Positions 3,325 to 27,269 of a DNA stretch of 64,000 nucleotides are shown piece after piece; within the stretch, counting starts at the first letter, position 1, and every line of letters starts with the position of its first letter. This stretch comes from Ketogulonicigenium robustum (lineage in GTDB: Bacteria; Pseudomonadota; Alphaproteobacteria; Rhodobacterales; Rhodobacteraceae): positions 2,229,501 to 2,293,500 of the forward strand of contig NZ_CP019937.1 in NCBI RefSeq assembly GCF_002117445.1, given 5' to 3'. The notes below the pieces were generated by a model. It did no database searches and was not told where the DNA came from. It worked only from the letters and a program-made list of their open reading frames with translations. The position numbers were made by a program, and so were the translations under genes.

Positions 3325-3333
3325 GGGCGTGCA

Positions 3334-3364
3334 TGCAGGTGTCGGGACCTTGCCCGGATCTGCA
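3334..3364 (+). other. 5'-leader hairpin upstream of the cytochrome gene
   Basis: Nested pairing: TGCAG (3334-3338) with CTGCA (3360-3364), enclosing CGGG (3343-3346) with CCCG (3353-3356). It would begin within a few bases of the predicted transcript 5' end and lies upstream of the AAGGA ribosome-binding site. 5'-terminal hairpins of this kind often protect mRNA from decay; that role is an inference here. Confidence 0.4.
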
Positions 3365-3389
3365 CCGCAGCAAGGTAAAGGAAGCTAAA

Positions 3390-3884
3390 ATGAACAACAA
3401 AACGATTCTGGGCGGTGTTCTTGCTCTGTCGGCCGTTCTGGCTGGCACGACGGGCGCATTTGCTTTCAGCAACATCGAGCGGACTCCCGCCGCTGACACC
3501 GCAGCTACCGAAGAAGCCGCCGCAACCGAAGGTGGTACGCGTACCATCTACGACGGCGTCTTCACCGCCGAGCAAGCCGAGCGTGGCCAAACTGACTGGA
3601 CAGCTAGCTGCGCCAGCTGCCATGGCCCGACCGGTCGTGGTTCGTCGGGTGGCCCGCGCGTGATTGGCCCCGTTATCAACAACAAGTACGCAGACAAGCC
3701 GCTGCAAGAGTACTTCGACTACGTTGTTGCTAACATGCCGATGGGTGCGCCCCACTCGCTGAGCAACGAAGCCTATGTCGACATCACCGCCTTCATCCTC
3801 AGCTCGCACGGCGCAGAGCCGGGCGATGCCGAGCTGACTGAAGCCGATCTCGGCAACATCATGATGGGTCGCAAGCCTAACTAA
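3390..3884 (+). CDS. Periplasmic c-type cytochrome, probable electron acceptor of the PQQ dehydrogenase
   Basis: A 164-residue monohaem cytochrome c. An N-terminal signal peptide (about residues 1-25) is followed by an Ala/Glu/Thr-rich linker and one haem site, CASCH (C74, C77, H78). The likely axial methionine is M116 or M118 in NMPMGAP. The start is the ATG at 3390, preceded by AAGGAAG; the frame is open further upstream, but that part overlaps the leader hairpin and lacks a signal peptide. It lies 83 nt before a PQQ dehydrogenase, so by analogy with cytochrome cL (MoxG/XoxG) it should carry electrons from that enzyme to the respiratory chain. Pairing with the second dehydrogenase is also possible, since that gene has no cytochrome of its own nearby. 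Confidence 0.85.
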
Positions 3885-3967
3885 GGCCAGCCACCCCGGG
3901 AATGGCCGGCCGCTATGCCGGCCATTCCAACCCCTTTACCCCAAAAACCCAAATCAAGGTCAAACCG

Positions 3968-5707
3968 ATGAAGACGAAGTCTTTTCTGTTTGCAGGCGTT
4001 GCTGCGCTTGCAAGCTACGGCACAATTGCGCTTGCTGATGTGACCCCCGTCACCGACGAGCTGCTGGCAAACCCGCCCGCCGGCGAATGGATCAGCTACG
4101 GCCGCAACCAAGAAAACTATCGCCACTCGCCCCTGAACCAGATCACGCCCGAGAACGTCGGTCAGCTGCAACTGGTCTGGGCGCGCGGCATGAACGCCGG
4201 CAAAGTCCAAGTCACTCCGCTGATCCATGATGGCGTGATGTACCTGGCGAACCCCGGCGACATCATCCAAGCGATCGACGCTAAAACCGGCGACCTGATC
4301 TGGGAACACCGCCGCCAGCTGCCCAACGTGGCAACGCTGAACAGCTTCGGTGAGCCGATCCGCGGTATCGCGCTGTACGGCACCAACGTTTACTTCGTCT
4401 CGTGGGACAACCACCTGGTTGCGCTGGACGCAGCCACCGGCCAAGTCACGTTCGACGTCGACCGCGGCCAAGGCGAAGACATGGTTTCTAACTCGTCGGG
4501 CCCGATCGTGGCTAACGGCGTGATCGTGGCCGGTTCGACCTGCCAATACTCGCCCTTCGGCTGCTTCGTTTCGGGCCATGACGCGACTACCGGTGAAGAA
4601 CTGTGGCGCAACTACTTCATCCCCAAAGCGGGTGAAGAAGGCGATGAAACCTGGGGCAACGACTACGAAGCCCGCTGGATGACCGGCGTCTGGGGCCAAA
4701 TCACGTACGACCCCGTCACCAACCTGGTATTCTACGGATCGTCGGCCGTCGGCCCGGCTTCGGAAACCCAACGCGGCACCACCGGCGGCACCATGTACGG
4801 CACGAACACCCGTTTCGCCGTGCGCCCCGACACCGGCGAAATCGTCTGGCGTCACCAAACTCTGCCCCGCGACAACTGGGACCAAGAGTGCACGTTCGAA
4901 ATGATGGTCGCCAATGTCGACGTCCAGCCTTCGGCTGACATGGACGGCCTGAAGTCGATCAACCCCAACGCCGCCACTGGCGAGCGTCGCGTGCTGACCG
5001 GCGTTCCGTGCAAAACCGGTACCATGTGGCAGTTCGACGCTGAAACGGGCGAATTCCTGTGGGCGCGCGACACCAACTACCAAAACATGATCAGTTCGAT
5101 CGACGAAACCGGTCTGGTCACGGTGAATGAAGATATCATCCTAAAAGATCTGGACACCGACTACCGCATTTGCCCGACATTCTTGGGTGGACGCGACTGG
5201 CCGTCGGCATCCTTGAACCCCGATAGCGGCATCTACTTCATTCCCCTGAACAACGCCTGTGCGGATTTGGCGGCAGTCGATCAAGAGTTCACGGCAATGG
5301 ACGTCTACAACACCAGCGCGACTTACCTGCTTGCGCCGGAAAAAGAAAACATGGGCCGCATCGACGCGATCGACATCAGCACGGGCAAAACCCTGTGGTC
5401 GGTCGAACGTCTGGCGTCGAACTACTCGCCGGTCCTCTCGACGGCTGGCGGCGTGCTGTTCAACGGCGGCAGCGATCGCTACTTCCGTGCCCTCAGCGAG
5501 GAAACTGGCGAGACCCTGTGGCAGACCCGTCTGGCGACTGTCGCTTCGGGCCAAGCCGTGTCGTACGAACTGGACGGCGTGCAGTACATCGCCATCGCTG
5601 GTGGCGGCACCACCTACGGCGCGGTCCAGAACCGTCCGCTGGCCGAGCCTGTTGACTCGACCTCGATCGGTAACGCCGTCTACGTTTTCGCTCTGCCCCA
5701 GCAATAA
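3968..5707 (+). CDS. PQQ-dependent L-sorbose/L-sorbosone-type dehydrogenase (copy 1)
   Basis: A 579-residue periplasmic quinoprotein. The signal peptide (residues 1-23, ending ALA) precedes mature DVTPV, then an eight-bladed propeller with repeated W-docking motifs such as [13 protein letters not shown] and ALDAATG. The catalytic aspartate region is RDNWDQE (D305); K349 sits where methanol dehydrogenase has its PQQ-contacting arginine. By recall it closely resembles the L-sorbose/L-sorbosone dehydrogenases of Ketogulonicigenium vulgare, which oxidise sorbose through sorbosone toward 2-keto-L-gulonate. There is no adjacent Cys-Cys pair; the nearest is C192/C199. The metal-site residues differ from methanol dehydrogenase (see findings). 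The gene follows a cytochrome gene and is followed by a terminator. Bases 4994-5544 are identical to the second copy. Exact substrate preference cannot be read from sequence. Confidence 0.93.
4994..5544 (+). repeat. 551-bp gene-conversion block, copy 1
   Basis: Covers codons 343-526 of dehydrogenase copy 1 and matches 28296-28846 base for base. Immediately outside the block the two genes differ again: GTG against GTT just before it, and GCT TCG against GCC AGC at its end. The sharp edges inside otherwise diverged genes indicate recent homologous exchange. Confidence 0.9.
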
Positions 5708-5818: not shown

Positions 5819-5885
5819 ACGCTGGTGTTTACCCAGCAATCTGAATAAATCTTTACATAACAACAGAAGTCCCGAGGATATGCAG

Positions 5886-6722
5886 ATGAGACGCCCGAAT
5901 ATGTGCGGATATGTCGCATCACTTGCCCTGATGCTGATCGGCACCGGCGCGCTGGCCCAAAGCGAGGTCGTGGCGCGCAACATGTACACCGAACGGACCA
6001 GCCAAGATAACAAGCTGACCTTCTGCTACAACGGCTTCAACGCGCTATCGGAATTCGAACAGGATCTGGCGCAGGCCCTCGGCGATGCCCTGCTGACCGA
6101 AGTGACCCTGTTCACTTATAAAGAGGGTGACCTGCAGTCGACCCCGACCTCGTATGACTACCGCCTACCAGTGAGTGACGAACAAATTTTCGTCCTGCTC
6201 GCCCAGAACTGCGACGCCTTCATGGGGTATGTGGCCAATACCAACGCCCCCGAATGGATGAAGGTGACCCAGCCCTACATCAACGTCGAATCGATCCTGT
6301 TTTCGGCGAACCCCGACATTCACCGCGTCGCGGATTTGACCCCGCCGGTGCGCGTTGGCATCCGCATGACGACGCCGGGCGACAGCCAGCTGATCTCCTA
6401 CGTTAACTCGACCCCAGGCTGGTCGCGCACCCCCTATCACGACAACGGCCGCGTTGTGGAACGTGTGCTGGATGGGTCGACCACGCTGGGCATGATCTGG
6501 CGCCAAGGGTTCTATCTGGCCCGCCACGACATGGGCGACGACCCCAAGATCTTCGCGCTGGACGACTTGCCGTTCGTGGCGCGCACATCGGCCATCGGCA
6601 TCGCGACCCGCGGGCAGGACGGCTACCTCAACACCATGCTGAACGATGCGATCGCCGCCCTCATGGCCGACGGCACGATCGAGGCGTTGCAAATCAAACA
6701 CCACATGTTGCCCGAGGGCTGA
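5886..6722 (+). CDS. MoxJ/XoxJ-like periplasmic binding protein (solute-binding family 3)
   Basis: A 278-residue exported protein with a signal peptide (about residues 1-23, ending ALAQ) and a family-3 solute-binding fold: NKLTFCYNGFNALSEFEQDLAQAL near the start and the hinge/second lobe around ADLTPPVRVGIRMTTPGDSQ. In quinoprotein loci such proteins (MoxJ, XoxJ) are thought to bind the dehydrogenase during maturation rather than feed a transporter. GAGG lies 8 nt before the ATG at 5886; the ATG at 5880 is too close to it. It directly follows the dehydrogenase and lies 1 nt before the next gene. A related gene closes the cluster at 19091. Confidence 0.75.
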   Translation: MRRPNMCGYVASLALMLIGTGALAQSEVVARNMYTERTSQDNKLTFCYNGFNALSEFEQDLAQALGDALLTEVTLFTYKEGDLQSTPTSYDYRLPVSDEQIFVLLAQNCDAFMGYVANTNAPEWMKVTQPYINVESILFSANPDIHRVADLTPPVRVGIRMTTPGDSQLISYVNSTPGWSRTPYHDNGRVVERVLDGSTTLGMIWRQGFYLARHDMGDDPKIFALDDLPFVARTSAIGIATRGQDGYLNTMLNDAIAALMADGTIEALQIKHHMLPEG

Positions 6723-6723
6723 T

Positions 6724-7344
6724 ATGATCCCCGCACTAGACCTGACGGTGTGGCAGATTTTTCTGCGGGCGACGGGCGGTCTTGTCGCCATAGGGGTGTT
6801 TGGCGCCGCGCTGGCGTGGATGTTCAAACTTCTGGGCGACGAAGGCCCCGTGCTGGACGGCCGCGGCCATCCCAGCCCCGTTTTGCACACCGGATGGTTG
6901 GCATGGGTGGGCACGGTTATCGTGCGCTTTGGCTGGGCGAAGCCGCTGGACGTTGATCCGCGCCTGCTGCGCGGCGGGCCATTGGGCACTGCCGCCGCTG
7001 TCGTGGCGGCGATGGCGGTTCTGGTGGCTTTGGGGAACCTGGCGCTGTTTCTTAGCCCCTATCCGGTACGTTTCTTCCCGCCGCCCTTCGGGATCGGGGT
7101 GCAGAATTGGCTGACAACCCTTGCGCCGATCTGTGCCTTGACGGTGCTGATGAACCTGATCCCGCTGCCCCCGTTTGCCGCGGGCTACGTGCTAAAGGCC
7201 TACGCGCCGCGGGTTTACAATCGCCTTCCGCCCGACTGGCTGATCGGCTTTGCGGTCATCGCTGCGATTTACATGATGCGGCCTATTGGGGCGCAGGGGC
7301 TGCTGCTGCAACTGGCTAGCCTTCTGCTGTCCGGACGTCTTTGA
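6724..7344 (+). CDS. Membrane protein resembling a catalytically dead M50 (site-2) protease
   Basis: A 206-residue protein with about five hydrophobic segments. Several landmarks of M50B site-2 proteases are present in order: LLGD (36-39), a GRxxP-like turn followed by H55, GWAKPLDVDPRLLR (70-83) and NLIPLPP (144-150). The metal ligands are not. Where HExxH is expected there are F26, G27 and L30, and the Asp of the NxxPxxPLDG motif is A152. It should therefore be a pseudo-protease that may chaperone or anchor partners in the membrane. It sits between a MoxJ-like gene and the DUF/VWA/MoxR block. The family call rests on manual motif matching and should be confirmed with a profile search. Confidence 0.6.
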   Translation: MIPALDLTVWQIFLRATGGLVAIGVFGAALAWMFKLLGDEGPVLDGRGHPSPVLHTGWLAWVGTVIVRFGWAKPLDVDPRLLRGGPLGTAAAVVAAMAVLVALGNLALFLSPYPVRFFPPPFGIGVQNWLTTLAPICALTVLMNLIPLPPFAAGYVLKAYAPRVYNRLPPDWLIGFAVIAAIYMMRPIGAQGLLLQLASLLLSGRL

Positions 7345-7345
7345 T

Positions 7346-8788
7346 ATGACACACACCACCGCGTCCGATCCGCATAACCGCTTGATGCGGCCTGCAAAAC
7401 TGGTTTTGCGGCGCTGGAAGCAGCGAAACGCGCTGACCGTTTTTGCCCTCGCCGCGCTGGTTGTCACGTTGGTCGTGCTGGGGCTGCGGTTGGCAGGCAG
7501 CACATTTCCCGCGCTGCCGTTTGTCTTTGCCGGCGGCACGTTCGGGCTGCTGATTACGATGATGGTAAACCGCGGCGCAGGTGCGCGCCTGCTGTGGCAA
7601 ATCGACCGCAGCGCGCAGCGCGACCAAGCCTATGCAACGGCCACCCGCCTGTCGCTGGATGCGGACGACCCCGGCCCTGTCGGCCGTGTGCTGCTGCGTG
7701 ACGAGGCCGCGAAAGCCGCCACAATCGACCCGCGCGCCGTCGTCAGCGTCCCCGGCCCCATCGCGATCACTGCTGCGGTTGCAACGGTGGTGTTGGTGGG
7801 TGTCAACTTCTGGCTGGCCGACCAGCGCGCCGCCCAAAGCCTGACGCACGACGCGCCCGCAGCCCCGGCAGCGGATGACGACACCGCACCCCTTGCCGAT
7901 ACGCTAGACGCCATCGCCACCCGCATGGCCGAGGACGCCGCCGCTACCGAAAATGACTATCTGGCCGCCGTCGCCCGCGCCTTGTCCGAAAAAAGCGACG
8001 CCTTGGCCGATGCGCCCGACGACGCCGCCCTGCAACAAGACGTGGCCGACCTGTTGGAACATGCCCGCCGCGCCTATGGCGAAACACCGCCAAACTGGCT
8101 GGGAGAATCCGGTGCTTTCTCCACCCAGCAAGTCGCCGAGAATTTCGAGGATATGCTAGCTCAGCAAGCCCGCGCCAGCGAACGCGCCGCCGAGCGCAGC
8201 CAAGAGGGCTATGTCGATATTTACGAACGCGACGACGAGCGCCTGCAACAGCTGTATAGCGGGCGCGACGCGGACGAGCTGATCTCGAACGTCGAGGGCG
8301 ATGTGCGCATGGCCGATAACGACCTCGCCCCCGGAACCGCCCCGGATGAAGGCACCCCGCGCCGGATGGACGATGCCGAGCTGCAAATGCTGGGCGGTGC
8401 GCCCGTGGGCGCCGCGATGGAATCGGGGCGCGGCGACAGCCGTCTGGCCGGTGGCGGCAGCCAAGAGCTGCAAGACGACACAACCTCCCTCGGCCCCGAC
8501 AGCACGACATCGACCGACATGACCCTTGCCGGGAACCCCGACGCGACCGGCAACCGCATCCGCATCGACGCCGCCCCGCCCATGGCCGCCGGTGACCCCG
8601 CCGCAACCAGTGATGGTGCCGTCGCGGGCCGGTTCGATTCCACCCAGATCGCGCGCGCGGCCATGGGCGCTGCACGCACCGAAATTCCCGCCTCCGCTCG
8701 CGGTCTTGTCGCCCGCTACCTGGATCGCGCGACAGCCAACAGCGCCGCAGGCGGCCAAACACAATCGTCGAACGGATCGGCAGAATGA
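7346..8788 (+). CDS. Membrane protein with long acidic, low-complexity tail (unknown function)
   Basis: A 480-residue protein with three N-terminal hydrophobic segments (about residues 28-48, 55-72 and 133-155), followed by a periplasmic or cytoplasmic region rich in Ala, Asp and Glu, with a likely helical part at 185-300 and Gly/Asp/Thr-rich low complexity from 320 on. I recognise no catalytic motif. It starts 1 nt after the preceding stop and overlaps the next gene by 4 nt. In mox/mxa loci the comparable place is held by small membrane-anchored assembly proteins, so an assembly-scaffold role is plausible but unproven. The start codon is ATG. Confidence 0.6.
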   Translation: MTHTTASDPHNRLMRPAKLVLRRWKQRNALTVFALAALVVTLVVLGLRLAGSTFPALPFVFAGGTFGLLITMMVNRGAGARLLWQIDRSAQRDQAYATATRLSLDADDPGPVGRVLLRDEAAKAATIDPRAVVSVPGPIAITAAVATVVLVGVNFWLADQRAAQSLTHDAPAAPAADDDTAPLADTLDAIATRMAEDAAATENDYLAAVARALSEKSDALADAPDDAALQQDVADLLEHARRAYGETPPNWLGESGAFSTQQVAENFEDMLAQQARASERAAERSQEGYVDIYERDDERLQQLYSGRDADELISNVEGDVRMADNDLAPGTAPDEGTPRRMDDAELQMLGGAPVGAAMESGRGDSRLAGGGSQELQDDTTSLGPDSTTSTDMTLAGNPDATGNRIRIDAAPPMAAGDPAATSDGAVAGRFDSTQIARAAMGAARTEIPASARGLVARYLDRATANSAAGGQTQSSNGSAE

Positions 8789-11700
8789 ACATCAGCTTGC
8801 TGTTTCCGGGTTTCGTGCTGCTGGCCGCATTGGCAGGTCTGGTCCTATGGCTGCACGCCCAGCGCAAGCGCGAGGTGATCGTGCCCAGCCTGCGCCTGTG
8901 GCAAGCGCTTGCCATCACTGCAGGCGCGACCAAACGCAATCGGCAGTGGCCGCCCCTTAGCTTGCCGCTGGTGCTGCAGGTGCTGGCAGTCATTTTGGCT
9001 GCGATTGCGCTGACCCAGCCGTTTATCGGGCCGCGCCCTGCCGAGCATCGCATCATCATTCTGGACCACATTGCCACGGATGATCCCGCAGCGGGCATCA
9101 ACCACCTGCGCGATACGCTGCAATCGGCCCGCTATGTGGCTGTAGTTGTCGGCGGCGGCACCCCGCGCATCTTACACGCGAACCAACGCGGCAGCGACCT
9201 TACCGCAAGCGAGATCTGGGCCACCGCCGCCGCTACGCTGGCAACGGGCGGCGCCCAGAGCGACTGGGCTGCAATCGACCGGCGCCTCGAGATGATCGAC
9301 CCCGCGCAGCAGGCCGAGGTCACCGTTTTGGGCAACAGCGCCCCACCCGATGGTTTTGGCCAGGACCGGCCGCTGGCGCAGGTCACGCTGGCGAACAGCG
9401 CCCCCGCGCAGATGGCTTTCACCGTCACACCCACGGCAACACCGTTCAGCTTCAACATCACCGGCACCATCGCAATGGCCGAGGGGCTGGAATCGGTCCA
9501 TTTGGTCATCGGTTATGCCGATGGCCCCGGCGTCGCGCCGCTGCCTTGGGTCGAAAAGACGCTGGGGCGGTCGATTTCGGGCCAGATTCGCATGAACGAA
9601 ACCGTCACCCTGCCCGGCGCGGGGGAACTGACGGTCACGCTGGATGGGCGGCTGCAAGGCAACCTCCGCACCGACGCCCCGCAGCAAGACCAGAACTACC
9701 TGTATTTCGGCGCGGGGCAGCAGCCTTTGCTGAACGCCGTGCGCGCCCTGCCCGATGCCGCCTTGTTCCAATCCGGCGCGGTGCCTGCCGACCTGTCAGG
9801 CTATCGCATGGCGATTGTCGACAACACGACCGTCGACCGCGCACCCGCTTTGCCCACGCTGTGGATCGGCTCGGCCCACGTCGCGGGGCAACCCGCACCT
9901 ACGCTGCTACCGCAATCCGACCCTGATGCATGGCAAACCGACAGCCCCTTGCTGGCCGCTGTCGACCTGTTGCCCCTGCTACCCGGCCCCGCTTATACGC
10001 TGCCCGCTATCGCTGGGGCCGACATTCTGGCCTCGGCCGCGGGGCAACCCCTGATCCAACTGGCCGAGGTAGATGGCCAACGGCAGGCATGGCTGGCGTT
10101 CGACCCCCGCACATCGAACTGGGCCGAGGACCCCGCCCTGGCCTTGCTGACACAAAGCTTGGTCAACTGGCTGGTGCCCGCCGCCCCAACCGCCGCCTGT
10201 ACCGCAGATGACCCGTGCTACCCCGACGGGCGGGTGATCGGCGCGATTACGGCCCCGTCAGATAGCACCCCCGCAACCGTCGGCCTGCCCTTGATGCCGT
10301 GGCTGCTGCTGGCCGCTGCGCTTTGCATTCTTGCCGATGCAGTACTGACGGCGCGCCGCCGTGGCGGGCGCATCGGGCTGCCCGCACCGCTTGCCGTCAT
10401 CGCGGGCGCGCTGATGCTGGCCGCCGCATTCGATCTGCCCGCCCCGCAGCCCACTGCGCGCAGCGCGGTTGTCGGCATCGACGTGGCGGGTGCCGCGCCT
10501 CACCAAGGGCTGCGCTTGAACACGCAAACCATATCGACCCAAGGCCCCCTGCCCGTTGTCAGCCAGACGGCGACGGGCGCACCCGCTGGCAACATCGCAA
10601 ATGCCGCGCTGGCGCTGGAGCTGGCCGATGCCATGATCCCGCCAGCCCAAAGCGGCGCGATCCTGCTGGGTGCCCCCGTGGTGCCACACCCCCTTGATGC
10701 GACTGGCATGGCCGCAACCCACGCAGTCAACAGCGTGCCGCTATTGAATGCCGGCGGGCAGCCGGTGCTGCGCAGCATGGCGATGAATGGTCGCCCGCTG
10801 CAGGGCGAGCCGCTGCCGCTGACTTTCCTTATCCATGCGCCTAACGCCACCCAGACTACCCTGCGCCTGCAACTGGATGGGGCAGATCTGTCGCAGACCG
10901 ATATCGCGCTGGCTGCGGGCGATAACCGTGTTGAAACGCTGCTGCCCGCGCTGGCAGATGACGAAGGGCTACTGCAGGCCCAAATCGGCGACGGGCAAAG
11001 CACGCAAACCGCCGGCCTGATTATCCGCCCCGCTGCCACGCGCCCCGTGGCGATCATCGCCGCCAACCCCGATGAAGGCGCGGCCTTTGCCCGCCTGTTG
11101 GCCGACCAAGGGATGACCGACACCCGCGTCCTGCGGCCTGACGAGACACCGGATTACTTGCGCGACTGGGCCGACTACGGCGGCATCGTGCTGCTGAACA
11201 CACCCGCGCTGGACCTGATGCCCCACCGCCAACGGATGATCCGGCAGATGGTGACGGAATACGGCCTCGGACTGCTGATCCTCGGGGGCGAACGCGCCTT
11301 CGGGCCGGGGGGGTATTTCGAAACCCCGCTTGAGGAAATCTCGCCGCTTTCCTCGCGCGTGCCGCGCGAAGCGCCCGAGGTGACGATGGTCTTCGTCCTC
11401 GACCGCTCCGGCTCGATGCAGCAGGCGGTGGATGACAGCAACCGGCTGGGGGTTTCAAAGCGCGCGACGCTATCGGCGTTGGACCTGCTGAACCCGCAAA
11501 GCCAGATCGGCATCGTGGTATTCGACACCGAAGCGACAACCATCGTGCCCCTCTCGACCGTGGACATCGACGCAGCGCGTACGGCACTGGAGCGCGTGGA
11601 TACCGGCGGCGGCACGGCGATCTATCCGGGGCTAGTTGCAGCCTATCAGGCCCTGCGCGCTAGCCAGTCGCCCGCCAAGCATATCGTTGTGATGACGGAC

Positions 11701-12762
11701 GGGCTCAGCCAACCCGGCGACTGGGCGGGCATTCTGGGGCAAATCACGGCTGACGGCACAACCGTATCCGCCGTCGCCGTCGGCCAAGGCGCCGATACCG
11801 AGGCTGCCAATACCATCGCCCGCCTTGGCAATGGCGTTGCGCACGTCAGCCGCGACTTCGCCGCGCTTCCCTCGATCCTTGCGCAGGAGGCGATGATGTT
11901 CGCCGACCCGCTGAACACCGGCGAAAGCCAACCCCAGTGGACAGGCGCCACCGCGCCCTTCCTGCGCGCGATGCCTGCGACCCTGCCCCCTGTAGGTGGA
12001 TTTGTGCTGACGACGGCGAAGCCCGACGCAACGGTGGCGATGACGGCCCCCGACACGCAGGGCGAGGATATGCCCCTGCTGGCGTGGTGGCGCGCTGGCA
12101 ACGGGCAGGTCATGGCTTTCGCATCGGACGCGGTGGGCAGTTGGACACAGCAATGGCACGACATGCCGGGGTATGGTGCCCTCTGGGCCGACAGCCTGCG
12201 CGCCTTCCAGCCTGCGCTGCCGATCAGCGGGCTGATCTTACGACTGCGCCCCCAGAACGAAGATCTGGTCGTCGCGCTGACTGCCCTGTCCCCCGCAGGC
12301 GAGGGCATCACCGGCATCGCCCCTATTGCACACCTGAAAACGCCCGATGGGACTGTGGATGTGCCGCTACAAATGGTTGGCCCCGGGAATTATCGCGGGA
12401 CGCTGCCGCGCGGGGCCACGGGGCGGTACGACGCCACGCTGGACGCCACCAGCGTCGGCGCACCGGAGCAAGCCATGCCCAGCGCCAGCTGGTTCAACGC
12501 GTGGAACCCCGCGCTAGATACCACCCGCAGCCCCGCCCCCACGCTGGCATTGGTGCAGGGCACCGGCGGGCAATTCACCGATCTGAAAACCCTAAGCGAC
12601 AGCCTTGCCGGCACCGCCTGGCGGCTGGCCAGCGCAGCACCGCCATGGGCACTGCTGGCCATTGCACTTTTCATGCTGGACCTTGTCCGGCGCTATGCTG
12701 AAATCAGAATATTCATGCGCCGCGCAGGCAACCGCCGCCCGACGCAAGCAGGAGCACGCTGA
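8785..12762 (+). CDS. Giant BatA-like membrane protein with von Willebrand A domain
   Basis: A 1325-residue protein. The N-terminus (FPGFVLLAALAGLVLWLHAQRKRE) matches the aerotolerance-regulator (BatA) N-terminal helix pair, with a second segment near 56-76. Two further membrane segments lie near 500-552 and one near 1285-1310. A VWA domain spans about 865-1050, with an intact MIDAS: DRSGSM (873-878), GGGTAIYP near 940 and MTDG (970-973). VWA proteins work with MoxR-type AAA+ ATPases in metal insertion and complex maturation; MxaC and MxaL play this part for methanol dehydrogenase. The next two genes are exactly the MoxR and DUF58 partners. It looks like a fusion of functions usually spread over several genes. 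ATGA overlap with the gene before; TGATG-type overlap with moxR. Confidence 0.8.
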   Translation: MNISLLFPGFVLLAALAGLVLWLHAQRKREVIVPSLRLWQALAITAGATKRNRQWPPLSLPLVLQVLAVILAAIALTQPFIGPRPAEHRIIILDHIATDDPAAGINHLRDTLQSARYVAVVVGGGTPRILHANQRGSDLTASEIWATAAATLATGGAQSDWAAIDRRLEMIDPAQQAEVTVLGNSAPPDGFGQDRPLAQVTLANSAPAQMAFTVTPTATPFSFNITGTIAMAEGLESVHLVIGYADGPGVAPLPWVEKTLGRSISGQIRMNETVTLPGAGELTVTLDGRLQGNLRTDAPQQDQNYLYFGAGQQPLLNAVRALPDAALFQSGAVPADLSGYRMAIVDNTTVDRAPALPTLWIGSAHVAGQPAPTLLPQSDPDAWQTDSPLLAAVDLLPLLPGPAYTLPAIAGADILASAAGQPLIQLAEVDGQRQAWLAFDPRTSNWAEDPALALLTQSLVNWLVPAAPTAACTADDPCYPDGRVIGAITAPSDSTPATVGLPLMPWLLLAAALCILADAVLTARRRGGRIGLPAPLAVIAGALMLAAAFDLPAPQPTARSAVVGIDVAGAAPHQGLRLNTQTISTQGPLPVVSQTATGAPAGNIANAALALELADAMIPPAQSGAILLGAPVVPHPLDATGMAATHAVNSVPLLNAGGQPVLRSMAMNGRPLQGEPLPLTFLIHAPNATQTTLRLQLDGADLSQTDIALAAGDNRVETLLPALADDEGLLQAQIGDGQSTQTAGLIIRPAATRPVAIIAANPDEGAAFARLLADQGMTDTRVLRPDETPDYLRDWADYGGIVLLNTPALDLMPHRQRMIRQMVTEYGLGLLILGGERAFGPGGYFETPLEEISPLSSRVPREAPEVTMVFVLDRSGSMQQAVDDSNRLGVSKRATLSALDLLNPQSQIGIVVFDTEATTIVPLSTVDIDAARTALERVDTGGGTAIYPGLVAAYQALRASQSPAKHIVVMTDGLSQPGDWAGILGQITADGTTVSAVAVGQGADTEAANTIARLGNGVAHVSRDFAALPSILAQEAMMFADPLNTGESQPQWTGATAPFLRAMPATLPPVGGFVLTTAKPDATVAMTAPDTQGEDMPLLAWWRAGNGQVMAFASDAVGSWTQQWHDMPGYGALWADSLRAFQPALPISGLILRLRPQNEDLVVALTALSPAGEGITGIAPIAHLKTPDGTVDVPLQMVGPGNYRGTLPRGATGRYDATLDATSVGAPEQAMPSASWFNAWNPALDTTRSPAPTLALVQGTGGQFTDLKTLSDSLAGTAWRLASAAPPWALLAIALFMLDLVRRYAEIRIFMRRAGNRRPTQAGAR

Positions 12763-13775
12763 TGACGACCGTTTCCACCACACAGACCGATCTTGATGCC
12801 GCGACGCTGGACCGCCTGCGCGGCGCGCTGTCGGCAACGCTGAAGGGGATGCAAGCCTCGGTCATCGGGCAAGAGGGGCCGGTGCGGCTGCTGTTGCTGG
12901 GGCTGATCGCGGGCGGTCACGTCTTGCTGGAAGGCCCCCCCGGCGTCGGCAAGACACTGATGGTGCGCAGCCTTGCGGTGGCGACCGGCCTGTCGTTTGC
13001 CCGCGTGCAATTCACCCCCGACCTGATGCCCGCCGACATCACCGGTGCCAACGTGCTGGTTCCCGATAGCGAGGGGCGCAATCGGCTGGAATTCCACCCC
13101 GGCCCGATCTTCACGCAGCTGCTGCTGGCCGACGAAATCAACCGCGCCACCCCGCGCACCCAGTCGGCCTTGCTCGAGGCGATGCAGGAAGGCACCGTCA
13201 CCGCTGGGGGGGCAACGCACAAACTGCCCAGCCCCTTCTTTGTGCTGGCCACGCAAAACCCGATCGAGATGGAAGGCACCTATACCCTGCCCGAGGCGCA
13301 GACCGACCGCTTTTTGTTCCGCGTCGATGTGGCCTACCCCGACCAAGCCACGCTGGCGGGTATCCTGACCAGCACCACCGGCACCCAGCAGGCCGCGCAG
13401 ACGCAGACCATTACGCCCGACGACATTCTGGCCCTGCAGCAACTGGTGCGCGCGGTGCCGATCGCCCCAGAAATGGTTGACGCCATTGCCAAGCTGGTGC
13501 TGACCACGCAGCCCAGCAGCCCGCTGGCCACCGATGAGGTGCGCCGCAATATCCGCTTCGGCCTTAGCCCCCGCGGGGCGCAGGCGCTGGTCATGGCCGC
13601 CAAAGCCCACGCCATGCTAGAAGGGCGCAACCACGTCGCCAGCGCCGATGTGCGCGCCGTTCTGCCCGCCATCACCGGCCACCGCGTGCAACTGAACTTC
13701 GAAGGTCGCGCCAACGGCATCGACATTGCCCAGCTTGTGCAGGGCCTGTTCGACAAGACGGTAGGCAAGCTCTGA
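12762..13775 (+). CDS. moxR: MoxR-family AAA+ ATPase
   Basis: A 337-residue ATPase with Walker A GPPGVGKT (58-65), Walker B LLLADEIN (D124, E125), the RATPRTQSALLEAM sensor region, and the C-terminal AAA lid. MoxR proteins act as chaperones that, with VWA-domain partners, remodel or metallate client enzymes; the founding member is needed to make active methanol dehydrogenase. Its start overlaps the VWA gene stop by one base, and its end overlaps the DUF58 gene start, so the three are translationally coupled. The client is most likely the PQQ dehydrogenase upstream. The ATPase call is certain; the client is inferred from context. Confidence 0.93.
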   Translation: MTTVSTTQTDLDAATLDRLRGALSATLKGMQASVIGQEGPVRLLLLGLIAGGHVLLEGPPGVGKTLMVRSLAVATGLSFARVQFTPDLMPADITGANVLVPDSEGRNRLEFHPGPIFTQLLLADEINRATPRTQSALLEAMQEGTVTAGGATHKLPSPFFVLATQNPIEMEGTYTLPEAQTDRFLFRVDVAYPDQATLAGILTSTTGTQQAAQTQTITPDDILALQQLVRAVPIAPEMVDAIAKLVLTTQPSSPLATDEVRRNIRFGLSPRGAQALVMAAKAHAMLEGRNHVASADVRAVLPAITGHRVQLNFEGRANGIDIAQLVQGLFDKTVGKL

Positions 13776-14629
13776 TGCGGCCAAGCCCCGCCCTTCTGGA
13801 ACAGCTGATGACAGCCAAGCTGGTGCCATCCTTGGCCCAGCCCAGCGTCGGCACGGGCGAGCGTCGCTCGCGCATGAAGGGTGCCGGGATCGAATTCATC
13901 GACCACCGCCCCTATCAACCGGGCGATGACACGCGCCATTTGGATGCGCATGTCATGGCGCGCACGGGCGATGCGGTCATTCGCGAATACGCCCTGATGC
14001 GGCAGGTGCCGATTACCATCGTCCTCGACAGCTCAGCCTCGATGGCGACCAAGCGGGATACGGCGGGGCTGGTCGCGCAGATTTTCGGGTTCGTGGGGCT
14101 GGCGGCTGGTGATCGCGTGCAGGTCGCAGTGAACCGCGGCGGCGCGCTGCGAATCGGCCCCCGCCTGCAAGGCACCGCCCGCGCCGAGATCCTGTTCGAC
14201 GAAATCGCCACCGCCGAAGACGGCCCCGCCCCCGACCTGATGCCCCTGCTGCGTGCGGCGCAAGGCCAGCGCGGGCTGATCATCATCATTTCCGACTGGT
14301 GGGACGAAGCTTTGGCCGAACAGCTGCCGCTGGCCGCCGCCGCAGGGCACGAGGTGCTGGGCATCCAGATTCTCAGCCCAGCCGAACGTGACCCCACTGG
14401 TCTCGGCCAAGGCGTCGTCAGCCTGCGAGACGCCGAAACCGGCGACGAGGTTGACGTGCGCCTAGATCTGGCGACACTGTCGGCCTATGCCACCGCTTTA
14501 CAAAGCTGGCAGCAGGATTTGGGCCAGACTTTCCGCAGCCGTAGCTGGCATTTCCTCGCCCTCGGGGCCGAGGATTCGCTGGATGATTTCTTTTTGCGCC
14601 GCTGCCGCAGCCTTGGGATTCTGACATGA
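13775..14629 (+). CDS. DUF58 protein (MxaS/MoxS-like), VWA-related
   Basis: A 284-residue protein with the DUF58 signature: a Gly/Glu/Phe start at about 37-41, then DHRPYQPGDDTRHLDAHVMART (43-64, cited by ends only: D43 to T64). A VWA-like core follows with D85-S-S-A-S-M90. DUF58 proteins are the usual third partner of MoxR ATPases; MxaS is the methanol-dehydrogenase version and is needed for assembly of the active enzyme. It overlaps moxR by 1 nt and the following ABC ATPase gene by 4 nt. Probably a soluble cytoplasmic or peripheral protein, since no strong membrane helix is seen. Confidence 0.85.
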   Translation: MRPSPALLEQLMTAKLVPSLAQPSVGTGERRSRMKGAGIEFIDHRPYQPGDDTRHLDAHVMARTGDAVIREYALMRQVPITIVLDSSASMATKRDTAGLVAQIFGFVGLAAGDRVQVAVNRGGALRIGPRLQGTARAEILFDEIATAEDGPAPDLMPLLRAAQGQRGLIIIISDWWDEALAEQLPLAAAAGHEVLGIQILSPAERDPTGLGQGVVSLRDAETGDEVDVRLDLATLSAYATALQSWQQDLGQTFRSRSWHFLALGAEDSLDDFFLRRCRSLGILT

Positions 14630-15606
14630 ACGCAACACCTGCAACCGACCCCCAAAATGCCATTGAGGTGCGCGGCGTGACCAAACGCTTTGGTCGGGTC
14701 GAGGCGCTGAAAGGTGTCGATCTGGATGTCCCGAAAAACAGCATCTTTGCACTGCTGGGGCCGAACGGCGCGGGAAAATCGACGCTGATCGACATTTTGT
14801 GCACCATCCGCCCGCAGGATAAGGGCACGGCCATGGTCGCGGGATTTAGCACCCGCAAAAATCCCTTGTCGGTGCGCCGCAATATCGGCGTCGTCTTTCA
14901 AAACCCCACTGTCGACAGCCGCCTGTCCGTGCGCGAGAACCTAGATTTTCATGGCATGGTCTACCAGATGCCCTACAAGGCCCGCAAAAAGCGCCTGATC
15001 GAGGTGCTGGAACTGGTCGACCTGTCGGATTGGATCGACGCGACCGTCGGCGCGTTGTCGGGCGGGATGAAACGCCGGCTGGAAATCGCCCGCGCGCTGA
15101 TGCACGAGCCGCGTATTTTGTTCATGGACGAGCCGACCGTCGGCCTTGATGCGCAATCGCGCGCCGCAATTTGGGATCACCTTGATCGCTTGCGCACGGG
15201 TTCGGATCTGACTGTCGTCGTTACAACCCACTATATCGACGAAGTCGACAATGCGGACCGCGTTTGCATCATTGACAAGGGTCTGATCCTCGCCAATGAC
15301 ACCCCCCAAGCCCTGAAAGAGGCCCACGGCACGACGACCCTGCGTCTGCGCCCCGCCTCGGCCGAGGCTGCCGCCCAGCTGAACGCGCGCTTTACCACTG
15401 CGACCAAGGGCGCGGGCGATACGCTGGTCTTGCCACTGACCGGCACCGAAGATCTGGCCGCCCTAATGGGCGAAATCGGGCCGCTGGCCAGCGGGTTGGA
15501 GCTGCATCAACCCTCGCTGGAAAGCGTTTTCTTGGGCCTGACCGGCCGCGATCTGCGCGAAGCGGGCGGTACAAAGCCAGCCCGCAGGGGGGGACGCAAT
15601 GGCTAA
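14626..15606 (+). CDS. ABC transporter ATPase, ABC-2 (drug/PQQ-system) type
   Basis: A 326-residue ATP-binding subunit with Walker A GPNGAGKS (45-52), signature LSGGMKRR, Walker B ILFMDEPTVGLDAQ and an H-loop in VTTHYID. The C-terminal extension of about 80 residues is typical of DrrA/CcmA-like export ATPases. PQQ alcohol dehydrogenase loci often carry such an ATPase with an ABC-2 permease (PedC type). Its natural permease is the ABC-2 gene at 18286, three genes downstream; the adjacent permease at 15599 belongs to another transporter class. It overlaps the gene before by 4 nt and the gene after by 8 nt. Confidence 0.85.
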   Translation: MNATPATDPQNAIEVRGVTKRFGRVEALKGVDLDVPKNSIFALLGPNGAGKSTLIDILCTIRPQDKGTAMVAGFSTRKNPLSVRRNIGVVFQNPTVDSRLSVRENLDFHGMVYQMPYKARKKRLIEVLELVDLSDWIDATVGALSGGMKRRLEIARALMHEPRILFMDEPTVGLDAQSRAAIWDHLDRLRTGSDLTVVVTTHYIDEVDNADRVCIIDKGLILANDTPQALKEAHGTTTLRLRPASAEAAAQLNARFTTATKGAGDTLVLPLTGTEDLAALMGEIGPLASGLELHQPSLESVFLGLTGRDLREAGGTKPARRGGRNG

Positions 15607-16378
15607 GCCCCACCGCAAACCCGCCGACAATCCGGTGCTGATCGCCCTATTGCGACTGGTCTTTCTGGGCCTGCTGCTGCTGCTGTGGTGGCTCGCTTCG
15701 GAAAACGTCTCGCGCAACCTGATCCCGTCGCCGCTGCAAACCTATGACGCGTTTTGGCGGTTGATCGCGAACGGGCGGCTGGTCGCAGCGCTTGGCGATA
15801 GTTTGCAGGTCTTCCTCAGCGGCTATGGGCTGGCCATTCTGGTCGCCGTCCCGCTGGGGCTGATCATGGGCGGATTCAACCTGCTGGGCAAAACGGTCGA
15901 GGTGTTCCTTTATGCCCTTGCCGCGACCCCGCGCGTCGCGTTCATTCCGCTGATCATCGTTTTCTTGGGCCTTGGCGTGCAGGCCAAGCTGACGGTGGTG
16001 TTCATGGGCGCGGTCATGCCGATCGTGATGAACACCTATGCCGGCGTGCAGCAGGTTGACCGCGAGTTGGTGGAAATGGCCCGATCCGTCGGAGCATCGC
16101 GGCTGCGCATCTACGCCCGCATCATCCTGCCCGGGTCGCTGCCCTATCTGATTGCGGGGCTGCGCATCGGGGCCACCATCGGCCTGATCAATACCGTCGT
16201 GGCCGAGCTTTACACATCGGTAAAGGGCCTTGGCGGCTTGCTGGCCACCTATGGCAACAGCTTCCGCATGGCCGAGTATTTCGTCGTTGTCCTGACGCTG
16301 TCGCTGATTGGCGTCGTGGTTACCGAAATCCTGCGCCACATCGAAATTCGCCTCGCCAGATGGAAGCAAGGTGGATGA
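15599..16378 (+). CDS. SsuC/TauC-like ABC import permease
   Basis: A 259-residue inner-membrane permease with about six helices and the BPD permease EAA-type loop in the region VEMARSVGASRLRIYARIILPGSLPY (about residues 158-183; key residues E-A-R-S-x-G and I-x-L-P). The family imports sulfonates, taurine, nitrate or thiamine precursors. Partner genes are the binding protein at 16407 and the ATPase at 17438. The ATG at 15599 lies inside the last codons of the preceding ATPase gene. The substrate is unknown; placement in a quinoprotein locus is unusual for this class. Confidence 0.82.
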   Translation: MAKPHRKPADNPVLIALLRLVFLGLLLLLWWLASENVSRNLIPSPLQTYDAFWRLIANGRLVAALGDSLQVFLSGYGLAILVAVPLGLIMGGFNLLGKTVEVFLYALAATPRVAFIPLIIVFLGLGVQAKLTVVFMGAVMPIVMNTYAGVQQVDRELVEMARSVGASRLRIYARIILPGSLPYLIAGLRIGATIGLINTVVAELYTSVKGLGGLLATYGNSFRMAEYFVVVLTLSLIGVVVTEILRHIEIRLARWKQGG

Positions 16379-16406
16379 ATCGCAACATTGCTGACTGGAG
16401 GATGCA

Positions 16407-17423
16407 ATGAAACTGACGAAGAATATCGCGCTGGCCTCGACCATCGCACTGCTTGCTGCGGGTGCGGCCCAGGCTGAACCCTTCCGCATGATCGTGACCG
16501 ACCTCGAGCCGCCCTTGGTTCCCAACTCGATCATCGATTTCGCCGTCGCAGGCGGTTATTTCACAGCCGAAGGCGTCGATCTGGAACTGGTTCGTGTGGA
16601 ACAGACGCCTTCCGCACTGGCTGCCATTCAGGCGGGCGAGGGCGAGATGGCGAACATCTCGGTCGACTCGCTACTGCAGCTGGTGGCGAACGGCGCCGAC
16701 GATCTGCGCGCCGTGCTGACGCCGAACAAAGCGCTGCCCTACCAGATCATCGGCAAAGACAGCATCGCCACGCTGGCCGATATGGAAGGGCACAGCTTTG
16801 GTGTCGGTCGCGTCGGCAGCCTTGATTATTCGCTGTCGCTGAACGTGCTGTCCACCGGCGGGGTTGATACCGACAAGGTTGAAATCGTCGCCTTGGGCCA
16901 ACCTGCCGTGCGCGCGCAGGCGCTGTCGGCCGGTCAGGTCGATGCAACTACGGTCTCGCTGGGTATCTGGCTGTCGCTGCCAGAAAAAGACGGGCTGCAC
17001 ATCATCACTAACGTCGATGATTTTTACGCTGCCGCCCCCGTGGTGAACAAAGTGAACATCGTCACCCTCGCCACGCTGCAAAACCGTCAGGCCGAGGTTG
17101 ACGGCATCACCCGCGCCGTCATCCGCGCCAGCCGCGATGTCGCCGAAAACAGCCAGCTGTGGGTCGATTTCATGACGACCGCCCGCCCCGATGTCTCGGC
17201 TGAAACGCTGGACGCGCTGGCCGCCGCCTTCACCCAAAGCTGGAGCGTGAACGGGGGCCTGTCCGCAGACGAGCTGAACTTCACCGCCGAATGGGCCTAT
17301 AAGGGCGAGGAATTCGTCGGCGTCCGTCCCGTCACGCTGAATGAATGGGTCGACTTCGGCCCGATCGACCGCGCGCTGGAAAGCCTTGGCACGTCGGATA
17401 TTTCCGACGCCGTCACCCGCTAA
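16407..17423 (+). CDS. SsuA/NMT1-like periplasmic substrate-binding protein
   Basis: A 338-residue binding protein with a clear signal peptide (residues 1-23, ending AQA) and the NMT1/SsuA-like start: MIVTDLEPPLVPNSIIDFAV, then GGYFTAEGVDLELV. GGAGG lies 7 nt upstream of the ATG. It works with the permease at 15599 and the ATPase at 17438. Relatives bind aliphatic sulfonates, nitrate or pyrimidine precursors; the ligand cannot be read from the sequence. A compound linked to the dehydrogenase pathway is possible by context. Confidence 0.82.
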   Translation: MKLTKNIALASTIALLAAGAAQAEPFRMIVTDLEPPLVPNSIIDFAVAGGYFTAEGVDLELVRVEQTPSALAAIQAGEGEMANISVDSLLQLVANGADDLRAVLTPNKALPYQIIGKDSIATLADMEGHSFGVGRVGSLDYSLSLNVLSTGGVDTDKVEIVALGQPAVRAQALSAGQVDATTVSLGIWLSLPEKDGLHIITNVDDFYAAAPVVNKVNIVTLATLQNRQAEVDGITRAVIRASRDVAENSQLWVDFMTTARPDVSAETLDALAAAFTQSWSVNGGLSADELNFTAEWAYKGEEFVGVRPVTLNEWVDFGPIDRALESLGTSDISDAVTR

Positions 17424-17437
17424 GACAGGTAGAACCC

Positions 17438-18274
17438 ATGAACCGCCCCGTCACGACGCAATCCTCCAGCACCGGTCTGGTGATGGAGAATGTCTCGAAA
17501 ACCTTCCTGCGCCCCGACGGGGCGGAAACATTCGCGCTGCGCGATGTGAACCTGCAACTGGCCGACCAGCAATTCGTCGCGCTTGTGGGGCCGTCGGGCT
17601 GCGGCAAGACAACAATGCTGCGCATGGCGAACGGCCTGCTTCAACCCGACGGCGGCCGTGTGCTGTTGAACAACGCCCCGCCCGTGCCCGGCCCGGATGC
17701 AGGTTTCGTTTTCCAGTCCTTCCGGCTGATTCCGTGGGAAACGGTGCTTTCGAACATCACCTTTGCGCTGATGGATATGGGCCTGACCAAGGCCGAACGG
17801 AACGACCGCGCCATGCACTATCTGGAACTGGTCGGGCTGGCGCGCGTGGCGGGCAACTACCCCGCGCAGCTGTCGGGCGGCATGCGCCAGCGCGTCGCAT
17901 TGGCCCGCGCCTTGGCGGTTGAACCCAAGATCCTGTTGATGGATGAACCCTTTGCCAGCCTTGACGCGCAAACACGCGAGCTGATGCAGATTGAACTGCT
18001 GTCGCTGTGGGAACGCCGCCGCGCGCTGGTGATGTTCGTCACCCATTCGGTCGACGAGGCTGTCACACTGGCCGACCGTGTTGTCGTCATGGGCGCAGGC
18101 CGCGTGCTGGAAACGGTCGATATCGACCTGCCCCGCCCCCGCGCCGGCGAGGCGCTGCGCGCCGACCCCCGTTATATTGAACTGCGCACCTATCTGTGGG
18201 CGCGTATCCGCGAGTTGGTCCTGTCGGACCCCGCATCCGAATTCCATGGCCGCGCTGCCGGCCAAGTTGCGTGA
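17438..18274 (+). CDS. SsuB/TauB-like ABC import ATPase
   Basis: A 278-residue ATPase with Walker A GPSGCGKT (51-58), Q-loop FQSFRLIPWETV, signature LSGGMRQR, Walker B ILLMDEPFASLDAQT and the switch histidine in FVTHSVDEA. This is the importer-type sequence pattern of SsuB/TauB/NrtD. It completes the importer with 15599 and 16407. The reading frame is open upstream, inside the 16407 gene, but the ATG at 17438, 14 nt after that gene's stop, gives the normal family N-terminus. Confidence 0.87.
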   Translation: MNRPVTTQSSSTGLVMENVSKTFLRPDGAETFALRDVNLQLADQQFVALVGPSGCGKTTMLRMANGLLQPDGGRVLLNNAPPVPGPDAGFVFQSFRLIPWETVLSNITFALMDMGLTKAERNDRAMHYLELVGLARVAGNYPAQLSGGMRQRVALARALAVEPKILLMDEPFASLDAQTRELMQIELLSLWERRRALVMFVTHSVDEAVTLADRVVVMGAGRVLETVDIDLPRPRAGEALRADPRYIELRTYLWARIRELVLSDPASEFHGRAAGQVA

Positions 18275-18285
18275 AAGGACAGTCC

Positions 18286-19086
18286 ATGGGCTATCTAGTC
18301 GGGGTCTATGCGATCTGGCTGCGCGAGGTGAAACGCGCCTTGCGTGACAAAGGGCAGCTGATCGGCGGCGTCAGTCGTCCGCTGCTGTGGGTGCTGATTT
18401 TGGGCATCGGCCTGAACCCCTATTTCCGCGGCGAGGTTTATGGCGAGACACGTTTCGTCGTACCCTATACCTACCTGCAATTCATCTTTCCCGCCGTGGT
18501 CGTGCTGAACATCCTCTACACCTCGGTCCAGTCGGCGGTGTCGCTGATTTGGGACCGCGAGTTCGGCTTCCTGCGCGAGGTGATGGTCTCGCCCATGCCG
18601 CGCAATCTGGTGCTGCTGGGCAAGGTGCTGGGCGGGGCGACGACGGCGGTGATCCACGGCTGTATGGTGCTGGCCGTCGCCCGCTTTGTTGGCGTTACAC
18701 TGATGTGGCCCCAATTCTTCGAGGCGCTGGCCCTGATGTTTGTGCTGTCCTTTGGCCTGACATCATTCGGGATCATCGTGGCGAATTACATTCGCGGGTT
18801 CGAGGGCTTCGGCGTCTTTTCAAACGCCATCATCTTGCCGCTCTACTTCACGTCCAGCTCGGTCTTTCCGCTGGATCCGGCGCTGACGCGGGCGCAGACG
18901 CTGGTCGTTTACCCCGAATGGCTGGTGATCGTGGTGGAATGGAACCCGCTAACCTATGCGGTGGATGCGATGCGCGGCATCTTGATCAACTTCAACCAAT
19001 TCGCCCCCGCCCTTGGCTTCCAAGTGGTGGGCATCATGGCCGTGGTTCTGTTCCTTGCGGCCATGTGGGAATTCAGGAAGGTCTAG
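18286..19086 (+). CDS. ABC-2 type transport permease (PedC-like)
   Basis: A 266-residue membrane protein with six predicted helices and the ABC-2 signature region near the third helix (WDREFGFLREVMVSPMPR, about residues 88-105). The natural ATPase partner is the gene at 14626. Permeases of this type are found in PQQ alcohol dehydrogenase loci and are presumed exporters, of unknown cargo. The ATG at 18286 follows GAAAGGA by about 7 nt; the longer frame starting inside the preceding gene is rejected. The next gene starts 4 nt after the stop. Confidence 0.83.
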   Translation: MGYLVGVYAIWLREVKRALRDKGQLIGGVSRPLLWVLILGIGLNPYFRGEVYGETRFVVPYTYLQFIFPAVVVLNILYTSVQSAVSLIWDREFGFLREVMVSPMPRNLVLLGKVLGGATTAVIHGCMVLAVARFVGVTLMWPQFFEALALMFVLSFGLTSFGIIVANYIRGFEGFGVFSNAIILPLYFTSSSVFPLDPALTRAQTLVVYPEWLVIVVEWNPLTYAVDAMRGILINFNQFAPALGFQVVGIMAVVLFLAAMWEFRKV

Positions 19087-19090
19087 GCCC

Positions 19091-27207: not shown

Positions 27208-27250
27208 TGCGCGGACGGAAACTCTCGGGAGGAGCAGGCCGTCCGCGCAG
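27207..27250 (+). other. Stable leader hairpin before PQQ dehydrogenase 2
   Basis: CTGCGCGGACGG (27207-27218) and CCGTCCGCGCAG (27239-27250) are a perfect 12-bp stem with a 20-nt loop that itself contains a GGGAGGAG stretch. The stem ends 8 nt before the true GGAGG ribosome-binding site (27259-27263). If in the transcript it would be very stable and could protect the mRNA or take part in translational control. Confidence 0.55.
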
Positions 27251-27269
27251 AACCATCTGGAGGACAGAG

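Follow-up and report, generated by a model that had tools for sequence, protein, structure and literature searches.

A predicted bacterial site-2 pseudoprotease conserved in gene clusters for PQQ dehydrogenases

Why would an operon for a PQQ dehydrogenase encode what looks like a dead intramembrane protease? This question is raised by a 206-residue membrane protein encoded in the window, which is the whole stretch of 64,000 nucleotides of Ketogulonicigenium robustum DNA that was analysed here. A preliminary description, based on the letters of the window, had read this protein as an M50B site-2 protease (S2P) that has lost its metal ligands but kept its fold, and had suggested that such a pseudoprotease might be used for chaperoning, sequestration, or membrane anchoring. 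Here, we ask whether the protein is an S2P homologue, whether the loss of the active site is a property of a family under selection, and what the company of its gene says about its possible function.

Results

A predicted pseudoprotease gene in an L-sorbose dehydrogenase operon

The operon is composed of the following genes.

3333..3884, + strand: c-type cytochrome, start uncertain
3902..5707, + strand: PQQ dehydrogenase with active-site motif D-Q-E, matching PDB 4mh1 with 1128 bits over residues 48-600
5880..6722, + strand: XoxJ/MxaJ/PedG-like periplasmic solute-binding protein (weak SBP_bac_3 match), its stop 1 nt before the pseudoprotease gene
6724..7344, + strand: putative pseudo-site-2-protease, 206 residues with four to six helices; F26, G27, L30, and A152 stand at the former catalytic positions
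7346..8788, + strand: 480-residue protein unmatched in Pfam and NCBIfam, its start 1 nt after the pseudoprotease stop
8785..12762, + strand: large vWA protein with a BatA N terminus, GATase1-like
12762..13775, + strand: MoxR AAA ATPase
13775..14629, + strand: DUF58 protein
14626..15606, + strand: ABC ATPase, relative of the PQQ-dehydrogenase-associated ATPase (TIGR03864, 234 bits, below the cut-off of 302)
15599..16378, + strand: SsuC-like ABC importer permease, family name assigned by its neighbours
16407..17423, + strand: SsuA/NMT1-like solute-binding protein
17438..18274, + strand: SsuB-like ABC ATPase, start inferred
18286..19086, + strand: ABC-2 permease, PedC relative (TIGR03861, 113 bits, below the cut-off of 241), start inferred
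19013..19918, + strand: solute-binding protein (SBP_bac_3) whose single N-terminal hydrophobic helix precedes LPPDTSL (the anchored binding protein), start uncertain

PDB entry 4mh1 is named sorbose dehydrogenase, presumably that of K. vulgare, and the match identifies the dehydrogenase of the operon as an L-sorbose dehydrogenase, nearly a K. vulgare one. The neighbouring genes probably serve to supply cofactors to enzymes that oxidise sugars and alcohols. A paralogue 90% identical to the operon enzyme lies elsewhere in the window (27243-29003), with no adjoining maturation genes in the list of open reading frames, and sorbose dehydrogenase paralogues elsewhere in the genome may share one apparatus. 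The 480-residue protein is conserved alongside the vWA and MoxR genes (35% identity in genome G018). Within the operon sits an SsuCAB-like importer (15599-18274, with permease, SsuA/NMT1-like binding protein, and ATPase), which might import a cofactor or metal complex. The same importer set, with an 'LEPPL.PNS' binding protein, is found in the clusters of G689, G018, G048-C16, G014, G074, and G042.

The pseudoprotease frame runs from an ATG at 6724 to a TGA at 7342-7344, 1 nt after the stop of the solute-binding protein and 1 nt before the next ATG, a spacing common to both congeners. The orthologue in K. vulgare is intact, which rules out an artefact of a frameshift or of the choice of start site.

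A small family of S2P homologues

A profile search of the family to which K. robustum belongs identified 13 pseudoprotease genes in 9 of 394 genomes: two in the own genome (G000), two in G689 (the nearest genome, from the same genus as the window), three in G048, and one each in G014, G018, G030, G074, G598, and G677. In total, 28 of the 394 genomes matched, 19 of them partially and in frames of 444-528 residues, which is the length of RseP; these 19 were left out of the count. The first family search had yielded 6 positive genomes out of 149, after a TauE/TSUP-like protein, recognized as such by eye (G120, locus L008), was dropped before all counts. A further candidate, a 201-residue frame in G042 (L149:3146-3715), was located by its cluster position directly upstream of the ABC ATPase gene. 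It aligns with the family from end to end (H-Q-M-V-L, V-G-W, L-V-P-V-A-P-L), while its scores are weak (E 0.0037 by hmmsearch of the frames at two loci, hhalign probability 30%). G042 had given no profile hit. The frame was left out of the 13, and we regard it as a probable but unconfirmed fourteenth member, strongly diverged.

Single-sequence searches recognize these proteins poorly. The window protein matches PF02163 with an E-value of 0.27 and 11 bits (gathering cut-off 27.2), and although 9 of the 13 members match this family at E <= 1, the best at 1.3e-4, none reaches the gathering cut-off. There was no NCBIfam match for the window protein, and its sole PDB sequence match (E 0.44, a glyoxalase-like chain) was dismissed as chance. 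Profiles were far more telling, and the M50 similarity perceived in the preliminary description was recovered in three comparisons with them. When the profile of the 13 members was aligned with six active relatives, hhalign gave 99.3% (E 1.8e-20), against 1.3% for a control with an unrelated membrane protein family. Profile A1, built from nine members, i.e., relatives found within the family, matched 193 of 385 genomes of the class at E <= 1e-6, and profile A2, built from 13 members, matched 142 of 398 genomes of the phylum at E <= 1e-15; since 7 or 8 candidates were scored per genome in the profile searches, and genomes were sampled from larger groups, some pseudoprotease carriers may have been missed. 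We inspected the best 29 non-own matches of each search, 58 in all, two pairs of which are the same gene twice. HExxH and PxPxD are present in 58/58, and no pseudoprotease was found among these 58 matches outside the family. As judged from these comparisons, a chance resemblance to S2Ps is excluded, and the 206-residue protein is a diverged M50B S2P homologue without catalytic residues.

Searches of other DNA added little. While tblastn of the window protein found nothing on plasmids, the L014 member gave six partial plasmid matches, four of them in genes annotated as site-2 protease family protein. A scan of genome contigs returned a single locus (L120), which belongs to a Syntrophobacterales MAG and matches with 31% identity over residues 36-156.

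Structure prediction points the same way. AlphaFold models were made for the window protein (pLDDT 87.4, pTM 0.83) and the L014 member (pLDDT 90.4, pTM 0.85); the input alignment of the second model (A5) included the G042 candidate. For the window protein, the top 8 VIA-align rows are S2Ps (Z 9.7-7.0), followed by an unrelated protein at 5.7, and the best match is 3b4r (Z 9.7, 160 aligned residues, rmsd 5.0). For the L014 member, the top 9 rows are S2Ps (Z 10.6-7.2, next 5.8), led by 7w6x (Z 10.6, 155 aligned residues, rmsd 4.5), with 3b4r at Z 10.1. This ranking comes from a VIA-align run on Foldseek's own candidates, and the Z-scores are middling for a helical protein; Foldseek alone returned nothing in the PDB at E <= 0.001 for the first model (best 0.38). 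S2Ps thus rank first for both models, and the window protein is predicted to keep the S2P core fold.

The active site is lost throughout a family under purifying selection

Alignment with the 58 active relatives bears out the residue calls of the preliminary description: the H, E, and H of HExxH are replaced by F26, G27, and L30 in the window protein, and the third-motif Asp by A152. The structural landmarks are in place, with GD at 38-39, GR at 46-47, P52, GW at 70-71, and the N-x-x-P-x-P-P loop at 144-150. Across the family, the Glu and second His of HExxH and the third-motif Asp are absent in 13/13 members and present in 58/58 active relatives. The three HExxH positions are occupied by H (7 members), Q (4), or F (2); by G (11) or S (2); and by L (8), I (2), V (2), or F (1), while the third-motif Asp is replaced by T (7), A (2), L (2), I (1), or P (1). 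The claim that all metal ligands are gone therefore holds for the window protein and not for the family, where seven members keep the first His. The middle-helix Asn, found in 58/58 active relatives, is replaced in the family as well (L8, M2, I1, P1, V1). By contrast, the GD, GR, and GW motifs are kept in 13/13 members, and G38, D39, G46, R47, P52, G70, P147, P149, and G154 are invariant.

Might the family have kept an enzymatic activity, through an altered chemistry or a reconstructed metal site? The first His retained in 7/13 members speaks in favour. We find this very improbable, considering that Glu, second His, and Asp are gone in 13/13 and that the window protein lacks the first His too. 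The protein is predicted to be unable to bind zinc or cleave.

At the other extreme, the gene could be functionless and decaying. Divergence is indeed high, with 22-37% identity to non-congeneric members, and the G042 candidate has diverged almost past recognition. Yet the frame is open in 13/13 members, the structural motifs are invariant, the 1-nt spacing is shared by both congeners, and the comparison of the window with the K. vulgare pseudoprotease (65% identity) gives a dN/dS of 0.26 (dS 1.19). This value is like those of the downstream neighbours (0.26 and 0.28), while MoxR (0.13) and the binding protein (0.11) are lower. Purifying selection contradicts decay, which we regard as hardly credible; the kept motifs and the dN/dS argue for a selected pseudoprotease instead. 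In a quick, unrooted tree, the 13 members form one side of a branch with an SH-aLRT of 100, and the simplest reading is that the active site was lost once, before the family spread. These findings support the pseudoprotease reading of the preliminary description: by its sequence, the gene fits the profile of an S2P pseudoprotease, i.e., an S2P homologue that has lost its catalytic motif and has been retained under selection.

No active sister is apparent in the same family. Among the 394 genomes, no active small S2P was found, and matches outside the pseudoprotease clade were all of RseP length, which argues that the pseudoprotease is not partnered with an active sister. Active small S2Ps were seen in about half of the genomes of the class, in contrast with the 394 genomes of this family. 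This bears on another explanation, in which the pseudoprotease regulates an active protease (RseP) or acts as its decoy, so that the anchored binding protein or some other client escapes cleavage. The own genome does encode an RseP-type M50 protease above the Pfam cut-off, and inactive rhomboids are reported to regulate clients and proteases. However, the ancestral small active S2P was not seen in the 394-genome sample, the 19 other matching genomes having RseP-length proteins only; no link between RseP and these clusters emerged, and the gene tracks the PQQ cluster rather than proteases. We consider such a role quite improbable.

The pseudoprotease gene keeps constant company

A binding-protein gene adjoins the pseudoprotease gene in 13/13 clusters, with gaps of -8 to +31 nt. 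The adjoining protein is of the XoxJ-like type in five clusters and of the anchored type in eight. The pseudoprotease gene lies downstream in tandem in 8/13, and is convergent with the binding-protein gene in 5/13, so that in these five the two are not co-transcribed. A PQQ dehydrogenase gene lies 1.0-3.9 kb away in all 12 measurable cases (the contig of G030 ends beyond the XoxJ-like gene), and every one of the 13 clusters contains an XoxJ-like gene, an anchored binding protein, and an ABC-2 permease. In the window and two other clusters, ~11-13 kb separate the anchored binding protein gene from that of the pseudoprotease. One N-terminal hydrophobic stretch with a proline-rich motif at its end is a feature of all 14 anchored binding proteins; the motif is LP[PQ][DE].[SAT]L in 11 and a variant in three. 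A partner gene (binding-protein or dehydrogenase-cluster) is found within ~1.5 kb at 12/12 pseudoprotease loci vs. 0/58 active-S2P loci, a comparison that somewhat favours the former since the partner queries were drawn from the family of the pseudoprotease carriers.

Not all neighbours are constant. The MoxR, DUF58, and vWA genes accompany the pseudoprotease copies of the window, G689, G018, G048-C16, and G074, with vWA also at G048-C7, and were not found in the fetched stretches of the layout in which cytochrome c adjoins the pseudoprotease gene; occurring in some clusters only, they are not constant partners. The survey of moxR and PQQ dehydrogenase neighbours called for in the preliminary description thus bears out the dehydrogenase (12/12 within 3.9 kb), to which the binding protein (13/13) and the ABC-2 transporter can be added as constant companions; moxR and vWA genes were found in part of the clusters.

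The partnership extends to genome distribution and copy number. The anchored binding protein was detected in 1 of 318 genomes of the class, which is the own genome, and in 8 of 238 genomes of the family (two in G000, three in G048, and one each in G014, G018, G030, G042, G074, and G598). Seven of these eight carry a profile-positive pseudoprotease, the eighth being G042. Copy numbers agree in these carriers (2/2, 3/3, 1/1), and G677 has one of each and G689 two of each. Similarly, the XoxJ-like protein was found in 7 of 100 genomes; six of these are all the carriers that the sample contained, and the seventh is G042. Fisher tests of co-occurrence (p 1e-12 and 6e-9) are a rough guide, since they assume that unlisted genomes lack the pseudoprotease and ignore shared ancestry, as is the joint chance of ~1e-25, for which genes were treated as independent. 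Only 12 of the 25 places with a PQQ dehydrogenase in the nine carriers have a pseudoprotease nearby, and a dehydrogenase/XoxJ-like pair in the own genome (G000:C1:1921590-1924049) has none, which indicates that the pseudoprotease is not needed next to every PQQ dehydrogenase.

In ten clusters, counting that of G042, the active-site motif of the dehydrogenase is D-x-D, which is the pattern of lanthanide enzymes; in the sorbose-type enzymes it is D-Q-E. In two loci, the PQQ dehydrogenase is fused in one frame to an N-terminal cytochrome c domain (L011:11118-13346, which is C1:883117-885345 of the own genome, and L082:11246-13330); the L011 fusion has one CxxCH, at residue 94 of 742. The usual domain order of quinohaemoproteins is the reverse.

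This gene company also lends itself to a reading in which the pseudoprotease is a transporter accessory, its former active-site cavity lying in the path of an ABC-2 substrate (e.g., lanthanide, calcium, or PQQ) rather than docking a protein. The ubiquity of the ABC-2 permease and anchored binding protein in the clusters, the resemblance (below cut-off) of transporter parts to PedC and the PQQ-associated ATPase, and the lanthanide-type D-x-D of the non-sorbose-type dehydrogenases are all consistent with it. Moreover, PedA1A2BC is reported as a lanthanide transporter (PMC12997753). Against it, the former active site has no conserved new polar cluster, most residues at positions 26, 27, 30, and 152 being hydrophobic or small, and the gene adjoins the binding-protein gene, not the permease gene, in 13/13 clusters. 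We therefore think it unlikely that the protein serves in transport itself.

Discussion

Taken together, these findings tie the pseudoprotease strongly to PQQ dehydrogenases by gene company, and the fixed linkage with a PQQ dehydrogenase and an XoxJ-like gene may point to a role in maturation. The explanation toward which we lean, if only just, is that the pseudoprotease docks proteins at the membrane, as a subunit of the apparatus by which these dehydrogenases would be loaded with metal and/or PQQ. The M50B-derived pseudoenzyme would keep the S2P membrane fold and serve as a membrane-embedded protein-binding subunit, its constant partners being 1) the XoxJ/MxaJ-like periplasmic protein, 2) the binding protein anchored by a single helix, and 3) the ABC-2 transporter. 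The former substrate groove would hold a client at the membrane beside the transporter during metal and/or PQQ insertion; plausible clients are the anchored binding protein, by its one transmembrane helix, and an apo-dehydrogenase/XoxJ complex. S2Ps bind helices that cross the membrane once, frequently close to helix breakers, which makes the anchored protein an attractive client for a dead S2P. Points against docking are the distance of ~11-13 kb to the anchored binding protein gene in three clusters, the convergent binding-protein gene in five, the PQQ dehydrogenases of the carriers that have no pseudoprotease nearby, and the fact that PQQ dehydrogenase systems elsewhere manage without one.

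A bolder version of the docking model, which we offer tentatively and rate as less probable, is that the clade is a transmembrane receptor that grips the helix of the anchored protein by its LPPDTSL-type end and docks the XoxJ-like chaperone at the ABC-2 transporter, so that metal and/or PQQ would pass directly to the apo-dehydrogenase. If this is true, an intramembrane protease has been turned into the hub of a periplasmic cofactor-loading machine, which would be a bacterial S2P counterpart of iRhoms.

To the periplasmic metal/PQQ loading of PQQ dehydrogenases, where the holding of apo-enzyme by XoxJ/MxaJ-type proteins is so far only a proposal, the clade would contribute a membrane component whose partners are defined. 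XoxJ/MxaJ/PedG homologues are proposed to hold a partly folded apo-dehydrogenase for cofactor insertion (PMC12997753). The preliminary description knew of no role for such a protein in PQQ dehydrogenase maturation, and we found none in the open-licence literature, which likewise yielded no bacterial S2P pseudoprotease and no link of S2Ps to PQQ enzymes. The bacterial S2P pseudoprotease clade is real and conserved, and apparently undescribed.

How does this clade compare with known systems? Its closest relatives are the active small M50B S2Ps (~230 residues, annotated 'site-2 protease family protein'), with which it shares the fold and the order of GD, GR, GW, and N-x-x-P-x-P-P. It differs from them by the absence of HExxH and the third-motif Asp, by a conserved stretch before GW that is about eight residues shorter, and by a PQQ-dehydrogenase neighbourhood that is fixed at pseudoprotease loci and found at 0/58 active ones. 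The Ped/Mxa/Xox genes (PedA1A2BC, PedG/XoxJ/MxaJ, and MoxR) likewise bring together a PQQ dehydrogenase, an XoxJ-like protein, and an ABC-2 transporter, and no S2P-like protein is described in the excerpts of PMC12997753 and PMC7391723. Here, in contrast, the ATPase and permease are below the NCBIfam cut-offs, and there is a second, membrane-anchored binding protein.

Among pseudoenzymes, EGY3 of plant chloroplasts, compared here by description only, is also an S2P homologue without the zinc motif, and is reported to stabilise other proteins (PMC10978774 and PMC9355673). It differs by its chloroplast location in plants, its stress-related roles, and its having no link to PQQ enzymes. According to a 2022 paper (PMC9355673), EGY3 is the sole pseudoenzyme with homology to the S2P family and is confined to plants; the clade described here would stand beside it as a bacterial S2P pseudoprotease family. 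The parallel with iRhoms is one of analogy only. These too are reported to be intramembrane proteases turned into receptors, acting mainly by recognising the transmembrane domains of their clients (PMC7618786), and they differ by an unrelated serine-protease fold, occurrence in animals, and other clients. Finally, MamO of magnetotactic bacteria is likewise reported to be a bacterial protease that has taken on a metal-related task in which it shows no protease activity, although it belongs to a serine-protease family and serves in biomineralisation.
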